DNA of 64,000 nucleotides from Cereibacter azotoformans (GTDB lineage Bacteria > Pseudomonadota > Alphaproteobacteria > Rhodobacterales > Rhodobacteraceae): positions 248,001-312,000 of the forward strand of contig JAGFXX010000001.1 of the NCBI GenBank assembly GCA_017599285.1, in the 5' to 3' direction. Shown here piece by piece: positions 12,068 to 24,301 of the stretch (position 1 is the stretch's first letter; each line of letters begins with the position of its first letter). Position numbers and translations under genes: made by a program. The notes beneath the pieces were generated by a model. It worked only from the letters and a program-made list of their open reading frames with translations, searched no databases and was not told the origin of the DNA.

Positions 12068-14139
<2,072 letters not shown>

Positions 14140-14143
<4 letters not shown>

Positions 14144-15369
14144 GCCGAGCGTCCCATGCGCGAGTCGGCAAAGGGCGCCACGGGACGGCCACGGTCGGCG
14201 GCGCGGCGGGCGAGCATCTGGGTCGTCACGAGCACGGTGCCCTCCTCGGTGCGGCGGAACCAGCGGGCATCCTCGTCCGCGTCCTCGCCGATCACGAGGC
14301 CCGCGGGCACCGACGTGCCGGGCGCGACGATGGTGCGGGTCAGCCGGACGCCGGGCGCGACGCGGGCGCCGGGCAGCAGGACGCTTTCATCGAGCATCGT
14401 CCAGCGGCCGGGAGTGTCCGCGCCCAGCCGCGGCGCATGAAGCGACATGCCGCCGGTCTGCATTCGGAAGGCGAACTGGATCAGCTCGCCGCTGGCGGCC
14501 CTCATCTCATGCTCGCTGGCGCCGATCCGGGGCGGCAGGGCGCAGGGCGGCTCGCCGCGCTGAAACTCGAGCTGGGCCAGCCGGTAGGCGTCGAGCGTGC
14601 CCACGTCGCGCCAGTAGAACCCCTCATCTGGCACGCGATAGGCGTTGGCCTCGCCGAGCGCGACCGCCAGCGGCAGGATGTCGTTGCCGAAATCCTGCGC
14701 GGTGCCGGGGATGATCCGCAGGACCGAGGCGAGCCAGTCGAGGTCGAAGACATAGATCCCCATGCTCACCTGCGCGCGTCCGGGGAGGGCGGGATCGGCC
14801 GGCACGGGATCGGGCTTCTCGAGAAAGCTCTCGATCCGGCTGCCCTCGCTGGTGCGCACCACGCCGAAGGCCGAGGCCCTGTGGCGCGGGACGGTATCGA
14901 CGGCCACCGTTGCAGAGGCGCCCGAGGCGCGGTGCGCGGCCACCATCCCGGCATAGTCCATCGCATAGACATGATCGGCGGCCAGAACCACCAGCTCGCG
15001 CACGCCTTCGGCCTGCAGCTCGTCGAGGTTGGCGGCCACCGCGGCCGCCGTGCCGCCGTAGCCCTGCGGGGTGCCGGTGACGGCCGTGCCCTCGCGCAGG
15101 CGCAGCGCGCCCGGCGCGAACTGTCCGGCCCAGTGGGTCTTCAGATGCCGCGCCAGTGTCTCCGGGCGGTATTGCGTGGCCACGATCATCCGCCCCAGCC
15201 CCGAGCGGACGGCGTTGGCGAGGGTGAAATCCACGATGCGCCGGGGACCGGCGAAGGGCAGGGCGGGCTTGCATTCGCGCGAGGTCAGTTCGTGCAGGCG
15301 GGAGCCGCGACCTCCCGCCAGAAGCACCGTGGCGGTGGCGGTAAGGTCCGGGCGGCGGGCGTCGCGCAT
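14140..15369 (-). CDS. Divergent glucose-1-phosphate adenylyltransferase-like protein (GlgC paralogue)
   Basis: A 409-aa nucleotidyltransferase. It has the NTP loop LLAGGRGSRLHELTSRECKPALPFAG, ADHVYAMDY with the metal-binding aspartate, FLEKP, SMGIYVF and YWRDVGTLDAY, then a left-handed beta-helix C-terminal domain (MLDESVLLPGARVAPGV...). The GlgC motif that is normally WYxGTADAV reads GYGGTAAAV here, so the tryptophan and aspartate are lost. It may make ADP-glucose or another NDP-sugar. Start choice is uncertain: I took the ATG at 15369, but an in-frame TTG at 15408 would add 13 residues. It is translationally coupled to glgX. Confidence 0.8.
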
Positions 15370-15623
15370 GGGGTTCGCATCCAGTTGTCGTGAAGTTGCG
15401 CGCTTCAACCGGCTGCGACAGGCCGCGGTTCCGCACCGCCGAGCGAAAATCTCGATCTTCCGCCGTGGCGGGAGCGGGCGCGCGTTCCGCCTCGGGGGTG
15501 TTCAGCGGAACCGGCGGTGCGGTGCGACGTTCGTCAGGCTGACCGCGAGAGGCTAAAGGCTTGGAGATCGACCGCAAATACCCCGACGGCACCGGATTTC
15601 GCGCGGCATGCGCCCGCCGTCGC

Positions 15624-16154
15624 TCAGCCTCGCCGCTCCCAGGCGCGCACCAGGGCCGCCGCCGCCTGGGCAAGATGCCGGCGGCTGTCCATCTCGAGCC
15701 GGGCCGCCACCGTCCCAATCCGCGCCAGCTCGCCGGTCAGCGCCCCGGCATGGCCGGCCGCGGCGGCCTCCTCGGAATTGCCCGATCGCCCAAGCTCGAA
15801 CTGCGAGCCGAGGAAGTAGTCCGGCGCGTCCGGCCGCCCGCCCACGGGATGCAGGAAGAGCAGGTTGTCGAACGGCTCGTCATTGGCGCGGTAGTTGCGC
15901 AGCACCACCTGCAACTCGCGCCCCAGCTTCAGCGCGTCGCGGATGTCGGCGCGGGCCTGCGCATTCTCGTCTCCCCGTTGCAGGAAACGGCAGTTGAAGC
16001 CGAGGATCTGCCCTTCGGTATAGCCCGTCATGCGCAGGAAGGGCGGGTTGGCCAGAACAAGCGGCTGCTCGGGCAGGGACATGTCCACGAGCGTCAGCGC
16101 CACACCCGAGCGATCGAAGACTGCGCGGATCTTCTCGAACTGTTTTTGATCCAT
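15624..16154 (-). CDS. Short LOV-domain blue-light photoreceptor (RsLOV)
   Basis: A 176-aa cytosolic protein made of a LOV/PAS core (about residues 15-130) and a helical C-terminal extension. The flavin-adduct motif is GFNCRFLQ with C55; it has phenylalanine where most LOV domains have arginine in GRNCRFLQ. RNYRANDEPFDNLLFLHPV follows as the conserved FMN-contact region. There is no output domain. I recognise this as the R. sphaeroides short LOV protein whose dimer is reported to dissociate on illumination. The start ATG at 16154 is 70 bases from the divergent kinase gene, which suggests a shared control region. Confidence 0.93.
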   Translation of the reverse strand: MDQKQFEKIRAVFDRSGVALTLVDMSLPEQPLVLANPPFLRMTGYTEGQILGFNCRFLQRGDENAQARADIRDALKLGRELQVVLRNYRANDEPFDNLLFLHPVGGRPDAPDYFLGSQFELGRSGNSEEAAAAGHAGALTGELARIGTVAARLEMDSRRHLAQAAAALVRAWERRG

Positions 16155-16224
16155 GTCCTCTCGCCTCTTGCGTTGCCGGAGCGTATGCGTCGGCTTGTCG
16201 CAGTTCCAGACGAAAGTTGACAGC
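16155..16224. promoter_or_regulatory. Divergent promoter region between LOV and CheBR-kinase genes
   Basis: Only 70 bases separate the two start codons, so promoters for a blue-light receptor and a large sensor kinase must overlap or abut. I see no convincing sigma-70 or ECF consensus. A GGAAC lies on the minus strand, but the matching -10 of EcfG-type promoters is absent. The interval gives linkage, not a mechanism. Confidence 0.4.
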
Positions 16225-19200
16225 ATGACGGAAAAGCTCTCCGAAGTCGAATCCGGAGCCGACCAGGAGCTGATCCTCCTCGGGGTCGGGGCTTCGGCTG
16301 GCGGGCTCGAGGCGTTCCAGAGCCTGCTGGGGGCGCTGCGTCCCACGGACCGCTTTGCCCTGATCCTTGTCCAGCATCTCGATCCCGAACATGAGAGCCT
16401 GCTGCCTGAACTGCTCTCGAAGCGCACGCGGCTGCCGGTGCGGTCGATCTCGGACGGGATGGAGGTCGAGGCCGGCAACATCTACCTGATCCCGCCGGCC
16501 TACGGTCTCGATATCCGGGGCCGGGTGCTGAAGCTGGAGGAGTTCGAATCCCCGCGCGGCCTTCGCCGTCCGATCGATGATTTCCTTCAGGCGCTCGCCC
16601 GCGAGCACGGGGCGAATGCGGCGGGCGTGATCCTGTCGGGGACCGGATCGGACGGGGCCAACGGCGTCCGGGCGATCAAGGAGGCGGGGGGCCTTGTCTT
16701 CGCGCAGGATCCCAGGGACGCGCGCTATGACGGGATGCCGCGCGCGGCGATCGCCACGGGCGCCGTCGATCTGGTGCTGCCGGCGGGCGAGATGATCAGC
16801 ATCCTGCGCGACTTTCACGACCGCGCCTCGGGGATCGCCCCCACCATCGAGAGCGACGCCGAGTTCATCGAGAAGGTGGTCCGCAACGTCCGCTACCGGA
16901 CCGGCCATGATTTCGCGGGCTACAAGAGCGGCACGCTGCTGCGGCGGATCACGCTGCGCATGTCGGTCCTGGGGCTGGAGGAACCGGGCGACTACCTGCG
17001 CGAGCTGGTCCAGAACCGCAGCGAGGCCGACCGTCTCTTCCGCGACCTGCTGATCAACGTCACGAGCTTCTTCCGCGATCCGGCCGCCTTCGAGTCGCTG
17101 GCGCGGGTCGCCGTGCCGGCCATCCTCGAGAGCAAGGACCGTGGCGACGAGGTGCGGATCTGGGTGCCCGGCTGCTCGACGGGACAGGAGGCCTACACCG
17201 TGGCGATGATCGTGGCGGATGCCATGGCGCGGCTCGACGTGCGGGCGCGGCTGTGCGTCTTCGGCACGGACATCGACGAGGAGGCGCTGGCCGTCGCGCG
17301 TCGGGGGCATTATCCCAACTCCATCGCGGCCGAGGTGCCGCCCGAGTTCCTCGAACGCTATTTCACGCCGACGCGGAACGGCTTCGAGGTGCGGGGCGAG
17401 TTGCGCGATGCGGTGCGCTTTTCCTCGCAGAGCCTGGTGAAGGACCCGCCGTTCTCGCGGCTCGACCTCGTGACCTGCCGCAACCTGCTGATCTATTTCG
17501 ATCACGAGCTTCAGGAACTGGCGCAGCGCGTCTTTCACTATGCGCTGCAGCCGGGCGGGTTCCTGATGCTTGGCCCCTCGGAGACGGCCAGGGCCGAGGG
17601 CGAGCCCTTCCTCGACGTGGTGCCCGAACACCGCATCTACCGCCGCAACGAGGGCGCTGCGCGCTCGCTCGATCTGCCCCGACGCTTCCGTGGCATCTCG
17701 ACGGGGACAGAGCCCTCGCACGAGGTCTTGCCCGAGCAGGTGTTCGGCATTCCCTATTCGGCCGCCGAGGCGCTGCTGGCGCGTCATGTGCCCGCCTTCC
17801 TGCTGATCGGCCCGCAGGATGAGGTGACGCGCGTGGGGCCCGGCGCCGAGTCCTTCGTGCGGCTCAATCCGGGGAACACCTCGCTGGGCATCCGGTCGTT
17901 GATCCTGCCCGAGCTTGAGCAGCCGGTGAAACGGCTGCTGACGGCGGGGGCGATCGCGGGGGGCGGCTACCGGCAGACGCGGGTCGCGTTTGCCGACCCC
18001 TCGGGCGCGCGGGATGTGCTGATCGGGGTCGAGACGCTGCCGGACGGCTCTCGCCTCGTCACCTTCGGCGCCACGGCCGCCGTGCCCGAGCCCGAGAACC
18101 GGATCGTGCTCGACGAAGCCTATGTAAGCCAGCTCGAGGACGAGCTGGAAGAGGCGCGCCGGATGGTGCGCACCACGGTGGAGGAACTCGAGACCTCGAA
18201 CGAGGAGCTGAAAAGCTCGAACGAGGAAATGATGTCGATGAACGAGGAGCTCCAGTCGGCGAACGAGGAGCTTTCGACCACCAACGAGGAGTTGCAGACC
18301 AAGCTGATGGAGCTGGCCGAGGCCAACGCGGACCTTGCCAACTTCATGTCCTCGACCCAGATCGCGACCGTCTTTCTTGATCGCGACCTCAGGCTGCGCA
18401 GCTTCACCCCCGAGGCGGCCAGCTGGTTCCGCTTCGTGGATCAGGACCGCGGACGCGAGATCACCGACATTCGTGCGCGGCTCGACATGGGCGTGGTGGC
18501 CGAGGTGAGCCGGCGCATCGCCGACGGCGGCGCGCCCGAAGAGGTGCGGCTGGCCTCGTCGGATGGCGAGGCCGAGGTGATCGTGCGGTTCGCGCCCTAC
18601 CGCAACGCCTCGGGCGACCGGGGCGGGGTGGTCTTCTCGGTGTTCGACGTGACCGCGGTTGCCCGCTACGCGCGGGCGGCCGAACGGGCCTCGGCCGAGG
18701 CCCGCGCCAGCGCCGAGGAGATCGAGGAACTCTACCTCGGCAGTCCCGGCGCGATGGGCCTTGTGGACCGCGACTTCCGCTACCTGCGGGCGAACCCGAA
18801 GATGGCCGAGTTCAGCGGCCTGCCGGCCGATGCGATCGTCGGCCGCTCGATTTCGGAGGTGCATCCCGAGATCGCGGGGCGGATGGTGGCGTCGGTCCGC
18901 AAGGTGTTCGACACGGGCGAGCCGGTGCTGCGGCAGATGGTGCGCGGCACGACGCCGGCCGAACCGGGCGTGGCGCGGGTCTGGGAGGTGGACTGGTATC
19001 CCGTCCATCGGTCCGACGGGGTGCGCGCCGTGGGGTTCAACGTGACCGACGTCACCCGCCTGCTCGAGTTGCAGGCCGACCTGCGCCGCATCATGCGCGA
19101 GCTGCAGCACCGGGTGAAGAACATGCTGTCGAACGTGATCGCGCTGGTGAACCGCGCGCGGCGCGAGCAGGGCGACCCGCAGGAGATCCTCGAGACGCTG

Positions 19201-19722
19201 GCGCAGCGCATCCGCGCGCTGGCCAACACGCACAACCTGCTGACGGCCGAGAACTGGGCCTCGACCGCGCTGCGCGACATCCTCGCGCTCGAGCTTCTGA
19301 ACGTCTATGGCGAAGAGCGGGTGATGCTGCGCGGGCCCGACATGCGGCTCAACGCCCGCGCCACGCTGAGCCTCGGGATGGTCATCCACGAGCTTGCGAC
19401 CAACGCCTCGAAATACGGTGCCTTCGCCCGCCCCGAGGGCAAGGTGTCCGTCCGCTGGTCGCGCGTGGACGAGGGCGAGGGCGAGGAGTTCCGGCTGGTG
19501 TGGCAGGAGAGCGGCGGTCCGGCAGTTAATGCGCCCTCGCGAGAGGGATTCGGCACCCAGCTCATGCGCTCCATGGTAGAGGGCTCCTTCAACGGCAGCA
19601 TCGACAGCCACTGGGAACCGGCCGGACTGCGCCTCGTTGTGGCCGTGCCCTGGAATGCAGCAACCGAAGTGGACTACGACAGTGACATGGACCCCCTCCG
19701 CCATGCGGATCCTCTACCTTGA
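16225..19722 (+). CDS. CheB-CheR-PAS-PAS HWE-type sensor histidine kinase
   Basis: A 1165-aa soluble multidomain signalling protein without transmembrane segments. Residues 15-200 are a CheB methylesterase lacking its receiver domain, with the triad intact (S24 in GASAGG, H51, D143). Residues 212-455 are a CheR methyltransferase (INVTSFFRD, PGCSTGQEAYT, FGTDIDEEAL, CRNLLIYF). A coiled coil at 633-705 has NEEL-type repeats every seven residues. PAS domains follow at about 710-815 and 838-948. The kinase has phospho-acceptor H962 (ELQHRVKN) and ATPase HELATNASKYGAF with WQE near 1093, the HWE class. No che operon or chemoreceptor is adjacent. The downstream response regulator overlaps its 3' end and is the likely partner. 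Confidence 0.92.
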   Translation: MTEKLSEVESGADQELILLGVGASAGGLEAFQSLLGALRPTDRFALILVQHLDPEHESLLPELLSKRTRLPVRSISDGMEVEAGNIYLIPPAYGLDIRGRVLKLEEFESPRGLRRPIDDFLQALAREHGANAAGVILSGTGSDGANGVRAIKEAGGLVFAQDPRDARYDGMPRAAIATGAVDLVLPAGEMISILRDFHDRASGIAPTIESDAEFIEKVVRNVRYRTGHDFAGYKSGTLLRRITLRMSVLGLEEPGDYLRELVQNRSEADRLFRDLLINVTSFFRDPAAFESLARVAVPAILESKDRGDEVRIWVPGCSTGQEAYTVAMIVADAMARLDVRARLCVFGTDIDEEALAVARRGHYPNSIAAEVPPEFLERYFTPTRNGFEVRGELRDAVRFSSQSLVKDPPFSRLDLVTCRNLLIYFDHELQELAQRVFHYALQPGGFLMLGPSETARAEGEPFLDVVPEHRIYRRNEGAARSLDLPRRFRGISTGTEPSHEVLPEQVFGIPYSAAEALLARHVPAFLLIGPQDEVTRVGPGAESFVRLNPGNTSLGIRSLILPELEQPVKRLLTAGAIAGGGYRQTRVAFADPSGARDVLIGVETLPDGSRLVTFGATAAVPEPENRIVLDEAYVSQLEDELEEARRMVRTTVEELETSNEELKSSNEEMMSMNEELQSANEELSTTNEELQTKLMELAEANADLANFMSSTQIATVFLDRDLRLRSFTPEAASWFRFVDQDRGREITDIRARLDMGVVAEVSRRIADGGAPEEVRLASSDGEAEVIVRFAPYRNASGDRGGVVFSVFDVTAVARYARAAERASAEARASAEEIEELYLGSPGAMGLVDRDFRYLRANPKMAEFSGLPADAIVGRSISEVHPEIAGRMVASVRKVFDTGEPVLRQMVRGTTPAEPGVARVWEVDWYPVHRSDGVRAVGFNVTDVTRLLELQADLRRIMRELQHRVKNMLSNVIALVNRARREQGDPQEILETLAQRIRALANTHNLLTAENWASTALRDILALELLNVYGEERVMLRGPDMRLNARATLSLGMVIHELATNASKYGAFARPEGKVSVRWSRVDEGEGEEFRLVWQESGGPAVNAPSREGFGTQLMRSMVEGSFNGSIDSHWEPAGLRLVVAVPWNAATEVDYDSDMDPLRHADPLP

Positions 19723-20056
19723 AGATGAAGCCATCATCGCGATGGAAACGGTGGAGACCCTGCGGGAGATGGGGTTCGAGCAGATCGACATGGCCTATTC
19801 GTTGCCCGCGGCCGAACGGTTCGTGGCCGACGCCCGCCCCGACATCGCGCTGCTGGACGTGAACCTGAGCCACGGGCGGACCTCGTTCGACCTGGGCAGC
19901 CGGCTTCTGGGCGAGGGGGTGCCGGTGGTCTTTGACACGGGCTACGCCAGCTCCAGCCTGCCCGCGGACCCGCGCGCCACGGTGATCGAGAAGCCCGTCA
20001 CCCCCAGCGCGCTGGAACGGGCCCTCAGCCAGGCGGCCGGCGCCGCCGAGGGCTGA
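19703..20056 (+). CDS. Single-domain response regulator
   Basis: A 117-aa stand-alone receiver domain with no output domain. The acidic pair is E-D-E near residues 7-9, the phosphorylation site is the aspartate in LLDVNL, the switch region is VVFDTGYA and the conserved lysine lies in IEKPV. The F-x-TGY arrangement resembles the FATGUY class of alphaproteobacterial receivers that work with HWE/HisKA_2 kinases. Its start lies 20 bases inside the kinase gene, so expression is coupled and the kinase is the obvious phosphodonor. Any downstream partner must act by protein contact. Confidence 0.88.
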   Translation: MRILYLEDEAIIAMETVETLREMGFEQIDMAYSLPAAERFVADARPDIALLDVNLSHGRTSFDLGSRLLGEGVPVVFDTGYASSSLPADPRATVIEKPVTPSALERALSQAAGAAEG

Positions 20057-20543: not shown

Positions 20544-22001
20544 TCAGTCCAGCGTGCCAAGCAGGGCATGGGCCGCGGCCAGATCCGCACGGAAGCGGCG
20601 ACGCTCCTCCGTCTGGGCCGCGGCGTCGGGCAGGCGCAGGATGTAGGAGGGATGGACCGTCACGAAGACCGGCGTCCCGTCTTCGAGTCGTTCCACCGTT
20701 CCGCGCCGCCTGAGGATGCCGGCGCCCGTCCCGGTCAGCGAGGCCAGCGCCGTGGCGCCCATCGCCACGATGAGCCGCGGCCGCACGAGATCGCGCTCGA
20801 GATCCAGCCACCAGCGGCAGGCGGTGACTTCGCCCGCGTCGGGCTTCTGGTGGATGCGGCGCTTGCCCCGCGGCGAGAACTTGAAGTGCTTGACCGCGTT
20901 GGTGACATAGAGCGTCGAGCGGTCGAGCCCGGCGGCGGTGGCCTCTTCGTCAAGGAGCTGCCCCGCGGGCCCCACGAACGGCCGGCCGGCCAGATCCTCG
21001 CGGTCCCCCGGCTGCTCGCCCACCATCATCATCCGCGCACGGGGCGGCCCTTCACCGAAGACGACCTGCGTCGCATGGGCCCAGAGCCCGCAGCGCCGGC
21101 ACGCCTCGGCTTCGGCCTTCGCCTGCGGAAGGGCCGCGGGCTCTCCCGCGCCGGCCCTGCGGGCAGAGCCTTCGGCCGCCGCCTCTCTCCGTCGCGCCAT
21201 GGCGGCGGTGCGGGCGGGCGGTTCGGTCGGTGCGGCCGCCTGCATCGCCGCGGCACGCCCGGCCGCGCCCCGGATCAGGTCGGGGATCAGGCCGGCCTCG
21301 GGCAGGTTCTTCCAGTAACGCTTCGGCATCTCGGACTGCATCGCCTTCACCATCAGCCGGGCGGGGTTGAAGATGTTGGCGTAGTAAGTGCGCCAGAGGT
21401 CTTCCGTTCCATCGGGCGGCGGCGGCGTGCGGTCCTCGGTCAGCACATGTTCCAGCGTGCCGTTCACGAAGCGCGACGTCACCTCTGGGGTGACGATGGC
21501 CCAGTCCATGTCCCCGAAGCGGCGGGTGAAGAAGGGGGCTGCGGCCTCCTCGACCGGGTGATCGGGTTCGAACCAGGCGGCGAAGGTGCGGCGGGTGCCG
21601 GTCGCGGGCAATTCGCGGAACCGCACGAAGGCGTGCATCTTGTGGATCTCGCGCCGGACGGTCTTTTCCTGCGCAAGCAGCCGGCGCAGGGCCGGGTCGC
21701 TGCGGTCTCCCCACCGCACCGACCCGTCCGCCAGCCGCAGCAGAAGCGCGTAGCTGCGCGCAAAGCGCTCGGGGTCCGCGTGGCAGAGCGCGGTCTCGAT
21801 CACCTCCACCGCCTCGCGCGGCAGGCGGATCTCGCGCGGCGGCGCCGAGGCGCGGGCGGGCTCGCTTGCGAAAAGGTCGGGCTCTCCCGCGCCGATGCGC
21901 CAGACGACGGCCTCGGCCGGGATGCCGGCGCGCGCCAGCCGCCGCGCCTCGGTGCGCCAGGCGGCCACCGTTCCCAGCCGCGGCAGGACCACCTCGGGCA
22001 T
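20544..22001 (-). CDS. DUF4130-UdgX fusion, uracil-DNA glycosylase superfamily
   Basis: A 485-aa two-part protein. Residues about 65-235 form a DUF4130 domain (HKMHAFVRFRE, FNPARLMVKAMQSEMPKRYWKNLPE). Residues 293-485 are a family-4-like uracil-DNA glycosylase (GEQPGDREDLAGRPFVGPAGQ, TNAVKHFKF, HPSYILR) with Fe-S ligand candidates C301, C304 and C395. The loop KRRIH at 380-384 marks the UdgX subclass, whose histidine (here H384) is known in mycobacteria to bond covalently to uracil-excised DNA. It probably detects or seals uracil lesions. It is coupled to the upstream radical SAM gene by a one-base TGATG overlap. Confidence 0.92.
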   Translation of the reverse strand: MPEVVLPRLGTVAAWRTEARRLARAGIPAEAVVWRIGAGEPDLFASEPARASAPPREIRLPREAVEVIETALCHADPERFARSYALLLRLADGSVRWGDRSDPALRRLLAQEKTVRREIHKMHAFVRFRELPATGTRRTFAAWFEPDHPVEEAAAPFFTRRFGDMDWAIVTPEVTSRFVNGTLEHVLTEDRTPPPPDGTEDLWRTYYANIFNPARLMVKAMQSEMPKRYWKNLPEAGLIPDLIRGAAGRAAAMQAAAPTEPPARTAAMARRREAAAEGSARRAGAGEPAALPQAKAEAEACRRCGLWAHATQVVFGEGPPRARMMMVGEQPGDREDLAGRPFVGPAGQLLDEEATAAGLDRSTLYVTNAVKHFKFSPRGKRRIHQKPDAGEVTACRWWLDLERDLVRPRLIVAMGATALASLTGTGAGILRRRGTVERLEDGTPVFVTVHPSYILRLPDAAAQTEERRRFRADLAAAHALLGTLD

Positions 22002-23221
22002 CAGAACAGGCTCAGCTGTTCCGGCGGCGCGACGAAACGGGCGCGCAGGCTGGCATCGTCCAGCCCCTGAGGCCGCCATCCGGGGGCCACGATGAAGGGC
22101 CGCGCGTGCTTGAGCACCGCGCCCATCGCCGGAAGATGTTCGTAGCGCACCGCCCCGTGCGCCCGCGCGGCGAGAATCCGGCCCACGGTCTTGGTGCCGA
22201 AGCCCGGCACCCGCAGCAGCATCTCACGCGAGGCGCGGTTCACATCGACGGGAAAGGCCGCCCGGTGCGCCAGCGCCCAGGCAAGCTTGGGATCGACCTC
22301 GAGATCGAGCATCCCCCCTTGCGCGATCTCGTCCACCGCAAAGCCGTAGAACCGCAGCAGCCAGTCCGCCTGATACAGCCGGTGCTCGCGCAGAAGCGGC
22401 GGGCGCACCAGCGGCAGCGCCTTGGACGCGTCCGGGATCGGGGAGAAGGCCGAGTAATAGACGCGGCTGAGCCCGTAGTTCGCATAAAGCGTCGAGGCAT
22501 TGCCGAGGATGGCGGCATCGTCCGCCCCGTCCGCGCCCACGATCATCTGGGTGGATTGCCCGGCGGGCGCAAAGCGCGAGGGCCTGCGGCCCCGAAAGCT
22601 CGGCTCGCGCGCGGCTTCCCGCTTCAGCCGCACGTCGGCCATCGCCTTGCGGATCCCCAGCGCGGACTTTTCGGGCGCGAGGCGGCTGAGGCCGGCCTCG
22701 GTCGGCAGTTCGACATTGATCGAGAGCCGGTCGGCGTAAAGCCCCGCCTGCTCGATCAGCTCGGGCGCGGCATCGGGGATGGTCTTGAGGTGGATGTAGC
22801 CGCGAAAGTTCTCACGCTCGCGGAGCGTACGGGCGATGCGCACCATGTCGCCCATCGTCTCGTCGGGTGAGCGGATGATGCCCGACGACAGGAACAGCCC
22901 CTCGATATAGTTGCGCCGGTAGAACTCGATCGTGAGCGTCACCACCTCCTCGACCGAAAAGCGCGCGCGCTCGACCCGCGACGAGGCGCGGTTGACGCAA
23001 TAGGCGCAGTCGAAGATGCAGAAGTTCGTCATCAGGATCTTGAGCAGGCTGATGCAGCGACCGTCGGGCGCATAGGCGTGGCAGATGCCGGTGCCGCCCG
23101 CCGAGCCGAGGCCCTTGCCGTCCTTCGAATCGCGCCGCTCGCCCCCGCTCGAGGCGCAGGAGGCGTCGTATTTGGCGGCGTCCGACAGGATCGCCAGCTT
23201 GCGGGCCAGGTCACGCTTCAT
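22001..23221 (-). CDS. Radical SAM protein with helix-hairpin-helix, putative DNA repair/modification
   Basis: A 406-aa protein of the family annotated as putative DNA modification/repair radical SAM protein. The 4Fe-4S SAM cluster ligands are C68, C72 and C75 (CIFDCAYC), and further cysteines (C22, C48, C56) lie upstream. A helix-hairpin-helix DNA-binding motif covers about 324-352 (VNRASREMLLRVPGFGTKTVGRIL). The last five residues are QLSLF, a match to the bacterial sliding-clamp-binding consensus. Its substrate is unknown in the literature I know. It is translated just ahead of the DUF4130-UdgX protein, which is the usual partner domain of this family. Confidence 0.88.
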   Translation of the reverse strand: MKRDLARKLAILSDAAKYDASCASSGGERRDSKDGKGLGSAGGTGICHAYAPDGRCISLLKILMTNFCIFDCAYCVNRASSRVERARFSVEEVVTLTIEFYRRNYIEGLFLSSGIIRSPDETMGDMVRIARTLRERENFRGYIHLKTIPDAAPELIEQAGLYADRLSINVELPTEAGLSRLAPEKSALGIRKAMADVRLKREAAREPSFRGRRPSRFAPAGQSTQMIVGADGADDAAILGNASTLYANYGLSRVYYSAFSPIPDASKALPLVRPPLLREHRLYQADWLLRFYGFAVDEIAQGGMLDLEVDPKLAWALAHRAAFPVDVNRASREMLLRVPGFGTKTVGRILAARAHGAVRYEHLPAMGAVLKHARPFIVAPGWRPQGLDDASLRARFVAPPEQLSLF

Positions 23222-23287
23222 GTGTTCTTAATATGTTCCTGCGTGCGCGTGATCAAGCGCCGGCGCCGTGGCTGACCGAAACGTGAC

Positions 23288-24301
23288 TCAGGCGCTGCGC
23301 AATTCGGGCACGGCCACCTCGCCGATCAGCCGCATGAGATCGCCGAAGTAGCCCCCGCTGCGGGCGGGCTGGGTGGCGTCCGAGGTGACGACCATCGTCG
23401 CCTCGAGATCCGGCAACAGGCACACGAGCTGGCCTCCGTAGCCGCGGGCCAGCGCGATCCGCTCGTTGCCCGCGCGGCCGATGAACCAACCATAGCCGTA
23501 GCCCAGGCCCGAGAAGGGCGACCGCGTCCTCGCCTGCAGCGAGCGCCGCACCCAGTCTTCCGAGAGCACCTGCGCGCCGTCGTGCCGGCCGCCCCGCCGG
23601 ACCATCTCGCCGAAGCGCAGCAGGGCGAGCGGCGACAGCGCCATCTCGTTCCCGCCAAGATAATATCCCTGCGGATCGCGCGTCCAGGCGGGGATGTCCA
23701 CCCCGAGCGGGCGGCCCAGCCACTCGCGCGTCATGGCGAGCAGACTTTGCCCGCTGGCCTCGGCCAGCACGGCGCCCAGCACATGGAAGCTGCCGGTCGA
23801 ATAGAGCATCCGCCCGCCGGGGTCCGCCACCATCGGCCGCGAGAGCGCGTAGGACACCCAGTTCCGGCTGGAGACCCAGGCGCCGTAATTGCCGCCCGAC
23901 GTGCGCTCGAGCCCCGCCCGCATCGTCACCAGATCCTCGAGCGCAAGATCGCGGACGCGCGGATCGGCGCCGGGCGGGATCAGCCGGGGCGCAACCTCTC
24001 CGATGGTGGTCCCGATCCCCGGCACCACCCCGCGGTCGAGTGCGGCGCCCAGCACCGCGGCCACGATGGTCTTCGAGACCGACTTCACATTCACCGCCCG
24101 GTCCGGGGCGGGGCCGCGCACGGCCTCGGCCAGCAGCGTCTCGCCGCCCTGCGCGATCACCAGCGCGCGCAGCTGGTCGTGCCGGCTGGCGGCGGCCAGC
24201 GTGCGCGACAGCCGGGGCCGCCGCGGCGCCTGCGCGCGGATCGAGGTGGGCAGGGCAAGCGATGCTCCGGCGGCGAGGAACAGGCGGCGGGAGAGGGTCA
24301 T
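23288..24301 (-). CDS. Serine hydrolase of the beta-lactamase/class C penicillin-binding family, exported
   Basis: A 337-aa protein with a twin-arginine leader (SRRLFLAAGASLALP, cleavage near RAQA, residue 24). SVSK is the nucleophile/lysine motif (SxxK) near residue 74, and YSTG takes the place of YxN near 167. The C-terminal KTG-like element is not clear; GYGGQ near 289 is the candidate. Such proteins are D-alanyl-peptidases, esterases or lactamases in the periplasm, and resistance is not implied. It is divergent from marR across 133 bases. Confidence 0.85.
   Translation of the reverse strand: MTLSRRLFLAAGASLALPTSIRAQAPRRPRLSRTLAAASRHDQLRALVIAQGGETLLAEAVRGPAPDRAVNVKSVSKTIVAAVLGAALDRGVVPGIGTTIGEVAPRLIPPGADPRVRDLALEDLVTMRAGLERTSGGNYGAWVSSRNWVSYALSRPMVADPGGRMLYSTGSFHVLGAVLAEASGQSLLAMTREWLGRPLGVDIPAWTRDPQGYYLGGNEMALSPLALLRFGEMVRRGGRHDGAQVLSEDWVRRSLQARTRSPFSGLGYGYGWFIGRAGNERIALARGYGGQLVCLLPDLEATMVVTSDATQPARSGGYFGDLMRLIGEVAVPELRSA

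Follow-up and report, generated by a model that had tools for sequence, protein, structure and literature searches.

We analyzed a three-gene locus in a window of 64 000 nt from Cereibacter azotoformans (assembly GCA_017599285.1, contig JAGFXX010000001.1, positions 248,001–312,000; unless a locus is named, coordinates refer to this window). The locus consists of a gene for a short LOV blue-light receptor, a divergently oriented gene for a histidine kinase that combines CheB, CheR, a coil, two PAS domains and an HWE core, and a gene for a single-domain receiver that overlaps the end of the kinase gene. Our findings make it fairly probable that LOV, kinase and receiver are one functional module, with the kinase as the partner of the LOV protein. 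The parts are of known kinds; joined as a stand-alone LOV, a CheB-CheR HWE kinase and a receiver, they represent a new type of arrangement for LOV-kinase signalling, found well beyond one genome. An earlier note on this DNA had described the three-gene layout, which proved to be real: the coordinates, the gap of 70 bp, the kinase of 1165 residues and the overlap with the receiver gene, which amounts to 20 bp, all hold (Table 1). As the whole architecture recurs in other genera, the locus is not a product of chance.

Linkage and co-inheritance of LOV and kinase

We searched a family sample of 394 genomes (393 genera) and scored two kinase candidates per genome. Kinase matches at E 1e-60 or better were found in 94 genomes, with many alignments ending near residue 692. 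Kinases were regarded as near full length when matched from residue 19 or earlier to residue 1115 or later, and 32 loci in 31 genomes were of this kind. The neighbourhoods that we compared comprise 31 loci of relatives and the window, 32 in total. A short LOV gene lies divergent from the kinase gene at a distance of about 60–200 bp in 13 of these loci, and in 8 others it lies upstream on the same strand, in one of them with a Crp-family gene in between. Loss of the linkage in relatives, for which the earlier note had suggested a survey, was therefore not seen: the LOV gene stands beside the kinase gene in 21 of 32 loci, in two gene orders. In 27 loci the receiver gene follows downstream on the same strand (L064 was judged by eye from its open reading frame, ORF), and in another locus it is found on the opposite strand. 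Within the genus, LOV is present in all five genomes examined and a full kinase stands beside it in four.

The linkage was also observed when the search started from the LOV side. All 176 residues of the window LOV agree with those of PDB chain 4hj4, and 4HNB, which is listed with that chain, was named RsLOV of Rhodobacter (Cereibacter) sphaeroides (PMC4335406). With RsLOV as query we found 29 matches at E 1e-18 in the family sample. Thirteen are parts of longer ORFs (339–399 residues), 12 of which hold a kinase-type domain (Pfam, E 0.001), while 16 are short LOVs, 13 located at the kinase and three elsewhere. Using a co-directional LOV as query (E 1e-22) we obtained 10 matches, namely the 8 co-directional loci, one of the non-kinase short LOVs again and one frame of 428 residues. 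Taken together, the two LOV queries found 24 short LOVs, and 21 of them lie beside a CheB-CheR-HWE kinase.

Next to their proximity, we observed that the two genes share their history. In a kinase tree of 36 rows, calculated with a quick method, the 15 kinases with a divergent LOV fall into one clade of 19 together with 4 LOV-less kinases, and the 8 co-directional kinases form a group of their own with a support of 99; LOV presence requires five changes on this tree. The LOV tree (40 rows) contains the same two groups, with supports of 83 for the divergent and 99 for the co-directional one. Pairwise LOV and kinase distances are correlated with r 0.92 for the 15 divergent pairs, 0.79 for 12 pairs chosen one per genus and 0.96 for the 8 co-directional pairs, and in each of the three sets none of 5000 permutations was as high. 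LOV and kinase travel together, which by itself is no demonstration of contact.

Properties of the three proteins and a proposed signalling path

Among short LOV proteins RsLOV has been well characterized in structure, and it serves as an optogenetic part (PMC9614035). As described in the earlier note it has no output domain, since Pfam assigns PAS models only to its 176 residues, and it carries the motif GFNCRFLQ. The cysteine motif NCR[FL][LM]Q is present in all 27 LOV proteins that we extracted, and the relatives are 168–203 residues long, with start codons chosen by us. As of 2022 RsLOV was described as having no identified binding partner (PMC9758184), and the conserved neighbour now provides a strong, testable candidate. 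A literature search over titles and abstract openings, with subscription papers mostly outside its reach, returned no LOV protein linked to a CheB-CheR kinase.

For the kinase, Pfam reports CheB_methylest, CheR_N, CheR, PAS_10, PAS_4 and HWE_HK (PF07536, E 1.2e-19). The highest mean hydropathy over 19 residues is 1.56, so that no clear membrane helix is apparent, in agreement with the soluble kinase of the earlier note; intact CheB and CheR active sites, also claimed there, were borne out by alignment. Residues 164, 190 and 286 of Salmonella CheB (1a2o), its catalytic triad, have S24, H51 and D143 as their counterparts in the alignment, and the CheR part aligns with 1bc5 and 1af7 over 245 residues. 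All 36 orthologues retain the three CheB residues and the residues of the CheR SAM-site motif that we checked, apart from G316, which is Ala in two. H962, E1056, N1060, W1093 and E1095 (H-box, N-box Glu and W-x-E) of the HWE core are likewise kept in all 36. At E 1e-10 the PAS_4-HWE part matches two PDB chains, both from blue-light-activated histidine kinases; the core aligns best with a solved enzyme of this type, presumably the Brucella one, and the NCBI model for blue-light-activated kinases is its second-best match (150 bits, with a cut-off of 450). The kinase core thus resembles blue-light kinases, yet the LOV motif NCRFL was found in none of the 36 kinases, which argues for a LOV that is supplied separately.

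The most conserved stretch of 38 residues lies outside the catalytic parts, in a coil (residues 653–690) of six heptads with one Glu pair each. Its mean top-residue share among 34 kinases is 0.91, compared to 0.77 for the best window outside, 0.66 for CheB and 0.64 for CheR. The window kinase has four matches to the half-motif EExx[ASTG][ASTG], all of them in the coil. Four half-motifs were reached in 13 of 20 000 shuffles of the 41-residue coil segment, which we regard as a hint only because heptad repeats are expected in a coil.

The receiver matches Response_reg of Pfam at E 9.5e-7 with 29.4 bits, slightly below the curated cut-off of 30.2, and D8, D52, T/S79 and K97 are conserved in 31 of 31 aligned receivers. 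Its closest PDB chains are 2lpm, which we take to be Sma0114, and 2n9u; SdrG (5ieb) and PhyR receivers match as well. The window receiver resembles FATGUY single-domain receivers (MrrA, SdrG, Sma0114) in the conserved Asp, Thr/Ser and Lys and in its nearest PDB chains, which are of the same group, but differs at the FAT-G-Y position, where it reads FDTGY. The four other genomes of the genus examined have FATGY, and variation is wider among the 31 receivers, with xSGY or HSGH being frequent in other loci. The work that names the FAT-G-Y motif of FATGUY receivers describes that the Caulobacter receiver MrrA accepts phosphate from several kinases and hands it on, to LovK among others, and relates the stability of its phosphate to an Asn at D+2 and a Tyr at T+2 (PMC5964349). 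The window receiver has N54 and Y81 at these positions. Elsewhere in the genome NepR, a sigma factor, PhyR and another HWE/HisKA_2 kinase are grouped at one place.

From these observations we propose a three-gene light-signalling module that would work like a LOV-histidine kinase cut in two. According to published work, RsLOV is a dimer in the dark that falls apart in blue light. The LOV protein would then act in trans on the kinase, with its C-terminal helices probably acting on the PAS part or the coil, and shift the kinase/phosphatase balance; we favour this step slightly. That phosphate moves between the kinase and the overlapping FATGUY-like receiver, and that the receiver shares this phosphate with other HWE/HisKA_2 kinases, appears likely. 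The FATGUY-like receiver with N54 and Y81, together with PhyR, NepR and sigma factor in the same genome, led us to propose the general stress response as output; such sharing might plausibly reach the PhyR-NepR-sigma circuit, a suggestion that we make tentatively and at less than even weight. More doubtful is a further step, in which methyl esters, added and removed by the CheB and CheR domains on the Glu-pair coil of the kinase itself or on another protein, would provide adaptation to steady light. The special case of a self-methylating kinase, whose own CheB and CheR would act on its own coil, seems unlikely to us; it would make the kinase a chemoreceptor-free cytoplasmic light switch with memory, driven by LOV in trans once the dimer has split. 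If true, the module would suggest why the kinase carries both chemotaxis methylation enzymes far from chemoreceptor genes, and it would show a route for light into the shared HWE phosphate network of alphaproteobacteria.

The proposed module shares features with several known systems. LOV-histidine kinases of the HWE/HisKA_2 family (Brucella LOV-HK, Caulobacter LovK-LovR, Rubellimicrobium RT-HK) likewise combine a LOV sensor with an HWE/HisKA_2-type core and have either a single-domain receiver or PhyR as their partner for phosphate (PMC5964349, PMC12148442). In those systems sensor and core form one chain, whereas here LOV is encoded by a separate gene, CheB and CheR domains are part of the kinase, and its PAS domains lack the photoactive cysteine motif. 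CheB/CheR fusion signalling proteins, known in KEGG as cheBR, also have CheB and CheR followed by a coil and a PAS domain; here, however, an HWE core is fused to them and a receiver and a short LOV are the partners. In R. sphaeroides such a fusion is called cheBRA (PMC6829392). A stand-alone LOV gene beside an effector gene, here a candidate one, is also known from Pseudomonas, where PmSB-LOV contacts the repressor PmlR2 in a light-dependent manner (PMC9758184); PmlR2 is a MerR-type repressor, whereas the partner proposed here is a kinase.

Evidence against the module and alternative explanations

Several observations weigh against a LOV-kinase-receiver module of this kind. In 11 of the 32 loci the kinase has no LOV match within the compared stretch (at least 2.2 kb upstream). 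In G002, a genome of the same genus, LOV and receiver are intact (71 and 90% identical, respectively), and what is left of the kinase gene is frameshifted and shortened by a large deletion, which may be an assembly error or recent decay; the dN/dS ratio of the G002 LOV (0.21–0.25 within the genus) is similar to that among the others (0.09–0.23), with dS near 1. Beyond the family we also examined a class sample of 385 genomes, in which 35 CheB-CheR kinase places were found at E 1e-120. None of the 8 loci compared from these has a LOV match; two of the 8 kinases match end to end and six of the loci have a receiver match. On the LOV tree the three non-kinase LOVs join the divergent group (support 81) and do not fall outside both groups, and monophyly of the kinase-linked LOVs as a whole was neither demonstrated nor rejected (p-AU 0.42), so LOV may have been recruited once or twice. 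The distance correlation was calculated without a genome background and may reflect plain vertical descent. Concerning the proposed output, NepR occurs in all 16 genomes tested (the 13 with a divergent LOV and three more of the genus), a count that lacks a background rate, and a scan for EcfG-like sites gave no match in the 70-bp gap. Finally, the full methylation consensus of methyl-accepting chemotaxis proteins (MCPs), [ASTG][ASTG]xx[EQ][EQ]xx[ASTG][ASTG] as given in PMC6829392, is present in none of the 36 kinases; for cytoplasmic receptors of R. sphaeroides the same paper describes no candidate sites by consensus and then candidates by mass spectrometry.

With respect to the functional link between LOV and kinase that the earlier note had put forward, neighbourhood in 21 of 32 loci, similar tree groups and correlated distances speak for it, while G002 and the 11 loci without LOV argue against strict pairing. 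The LOV-less kinases inside and outside the family (11 of 32 and 8 of 8 loci) mark LOV as an add-on, and, judged from sequence comparison, an older kinase-receiver pair appears to have gained it as an input.

LOV might instead act mainly on the control of photosynthesis genes through the AppA/PpsR branch, in which case the gene neighbourhood would mean shared expression and not contact with the kinase. RsLOV was described to down-regulate photosynthesis and photo-oxidative stress genes and to act with AppA (PMC4844311), a LOV protein without kinase activity in Dinoroseobacter shibae binds PpsR (PMC10890935), and in G002 LOV outlasts the kinase. Nevertheless we consider this explanation improbable, as nearly all short LOVs found lie beside the kinase and phototrophy is not enriched with LOV among the 32 kinase loci. 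The reaction-centre family PF00124, matched in 167 of the 394 family genomes (166 above the cut-off), is found in 5 of 13 genomes with a divergent LOV, 3 of 8 with a co-directional LOV and 8 of 11 with a LOV-less kinase. Since 8 of the 13 divergent-pair and 5 of the 8 co-directional genomes have no reaction-centre match, photosynthesis genes are not the common target. The LOV-kinase pair is not a photosynthesis accessory and a general role in photosynthesis control is unlikely, although in R. sphaeroides RsLOV may have an added role of this kind.

A chemotaxis function, with the kinase as an adaptation enzyme whose CheB and CheR modify chemoreceptors in trans and couple light to swimming, is in our view still less probable. 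It would agree with an effect of RsLOV on chemotaxis genes (PMC4335406) and with the deletion of cheBRA in R. sphaeroides strain WS8N by a chemotaxis group (PMC6829392), as the window kinase gene may be this cheBRA; however, the accessible text of that paper gives no separate phenotype for cheBRA alone. In the genome, which is about 84% complete, four MCP matches were found, and three CheB matches if the kinase itself is counted. On the contig the nearest MCP is about 423 kb from the kinase and the nearest other CheB about 546 kb, which agrees with the claim of the earlier note that no chemoreceptor lies close by (CheA and CheW were not searched). The output parts, an HWE core and a FATGUY-like receiver in place of CheA and CheY, point in the same direction, so that the description in the earlier note, a switch other than classical chemotaxis, fits.

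We regard it as very unlikely that a short common regulatory region is all that connects LOV and kinase, with no signal passing from LOV to kinase and with CheB and CheR being structural. Divergent genes over a short gap in 13 loci would be expected from such sharing, and within the gap the 17-bp element AGTTCCAGACGAAAGTT is near-identical in the five genomes of the genus examined and in one neighbour genus (G094), though not in G359. On the other hand, no divergent promoter is kept in the 8 loci with a LOV gene upstream on the same strand, and the key CheB and CheR residues are conserved in all 36 kinases.

Layout of the locus and further observations

Table 1. Features of the LOV-kinase-receiver locus in window coordinates
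Feature	Position	Strand	Remarks
Short LOV blue-light receptor	15624..16154	-	176 aa, identical to RsLOV
Divergent intergenic region LOV/kinase	16155..16224		70 bp
17-bp element AGTTCCAGACGAAAGTT	16202..16218		Near-identical in 6 of 7 aligned loci
CheB-CheR-coil-PAS-PAS-HWE histidine kinase	16225..19722	+	1165 aa
CheB methylesterase domain, residues 20-192 (S24, H51, D143)	16282..16800	+	Pfam, alignment
CheR N-terminal and SAM-binding domains, residues 216-457	16870..17595	+	Pfam, alignment
Glu-pair heptad coil, residues 653-690	18181..18294	+	Most conserved 38-residue stretch of the kinase
PAS_10 domain, residues 704-810	18334..18654	+	Pfam
PAS_4 domain, residues 840-945	18742..19059	+	Pfam; without LOV cysteine motif
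HWE kinase core (H962, E1056, N1060, W1093-x-E1095)	19099..19644	+	Pfam, alignment
Single-domain receiver, 117 aa (D52, T79, K97)	19703..20056	+	20-bp overlap with kinase gene

Some features of individual loci are given here for completeness. The three non-kinase short LOVs come from G019, G061 and G297 (L049, 9461–10723; L050, 3384–4836; L051, 7090–8723) and all adjoin or lie near a GTPase ORF, which was assigned as Dynamin_N by Pfam in L049 and L051 and by eye in L050. The GTPase neighbourhood is a second recurrent context of short LOVs. In L050 and L051 the LOV gene also adjoins a small roadblock-like ORF, recognized by eye; the one that was scanned had no Pfam match.

Among the kinase-linked loci, the Crp-family regulator between LOV and kinase (Pfam) is located in L058 (6128–6868), and a similar-looking ORF (by eye) lies divergent from a LOV-less kinase in L056 (5975–6760, kinase-oriented coordinates). 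Just past the LOV gene of G359 there is a second, small ORF for an HWE-like kinase, which also matches a receiver weakly (L039, 5724–6773). In the kinase remnant of G002 (L034, 9105–10434) the overlap with the receiver start is retained. The coil of the L044 kinase is shorter than that of the other aligned kinases by exactly seven residues, one heptad. An AlphaFold model of the whole kinase, based on a two-row alignment, was unusable (mean pLDDT 32.6, pTM 0.22). A search for EcfG-like promoters in about 900 bases upstream of 34 kinases gave 6 matches, 3 of them from one genus, and was not taken as evidence. The four LOV-less kinases inside the divergent clade (L052–L055) all come from genomes with reaction-centre matches, which are too few to interpret; one of them has a PAS-HTH_8 (PpsR-like) gene and a gene for a B12-binding protein in its vicinity (L054, 4670–6885).

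In the window the locus is flanked by genes on the minus strand on both sides: a CBM_48/alpha-amylase protein and a nucleotidyltransferase are encoded at 12068–15408, and a UDG protein with DUF4130, a radical SAM protein and a beta-lactamase-family protein at 20544–24301.

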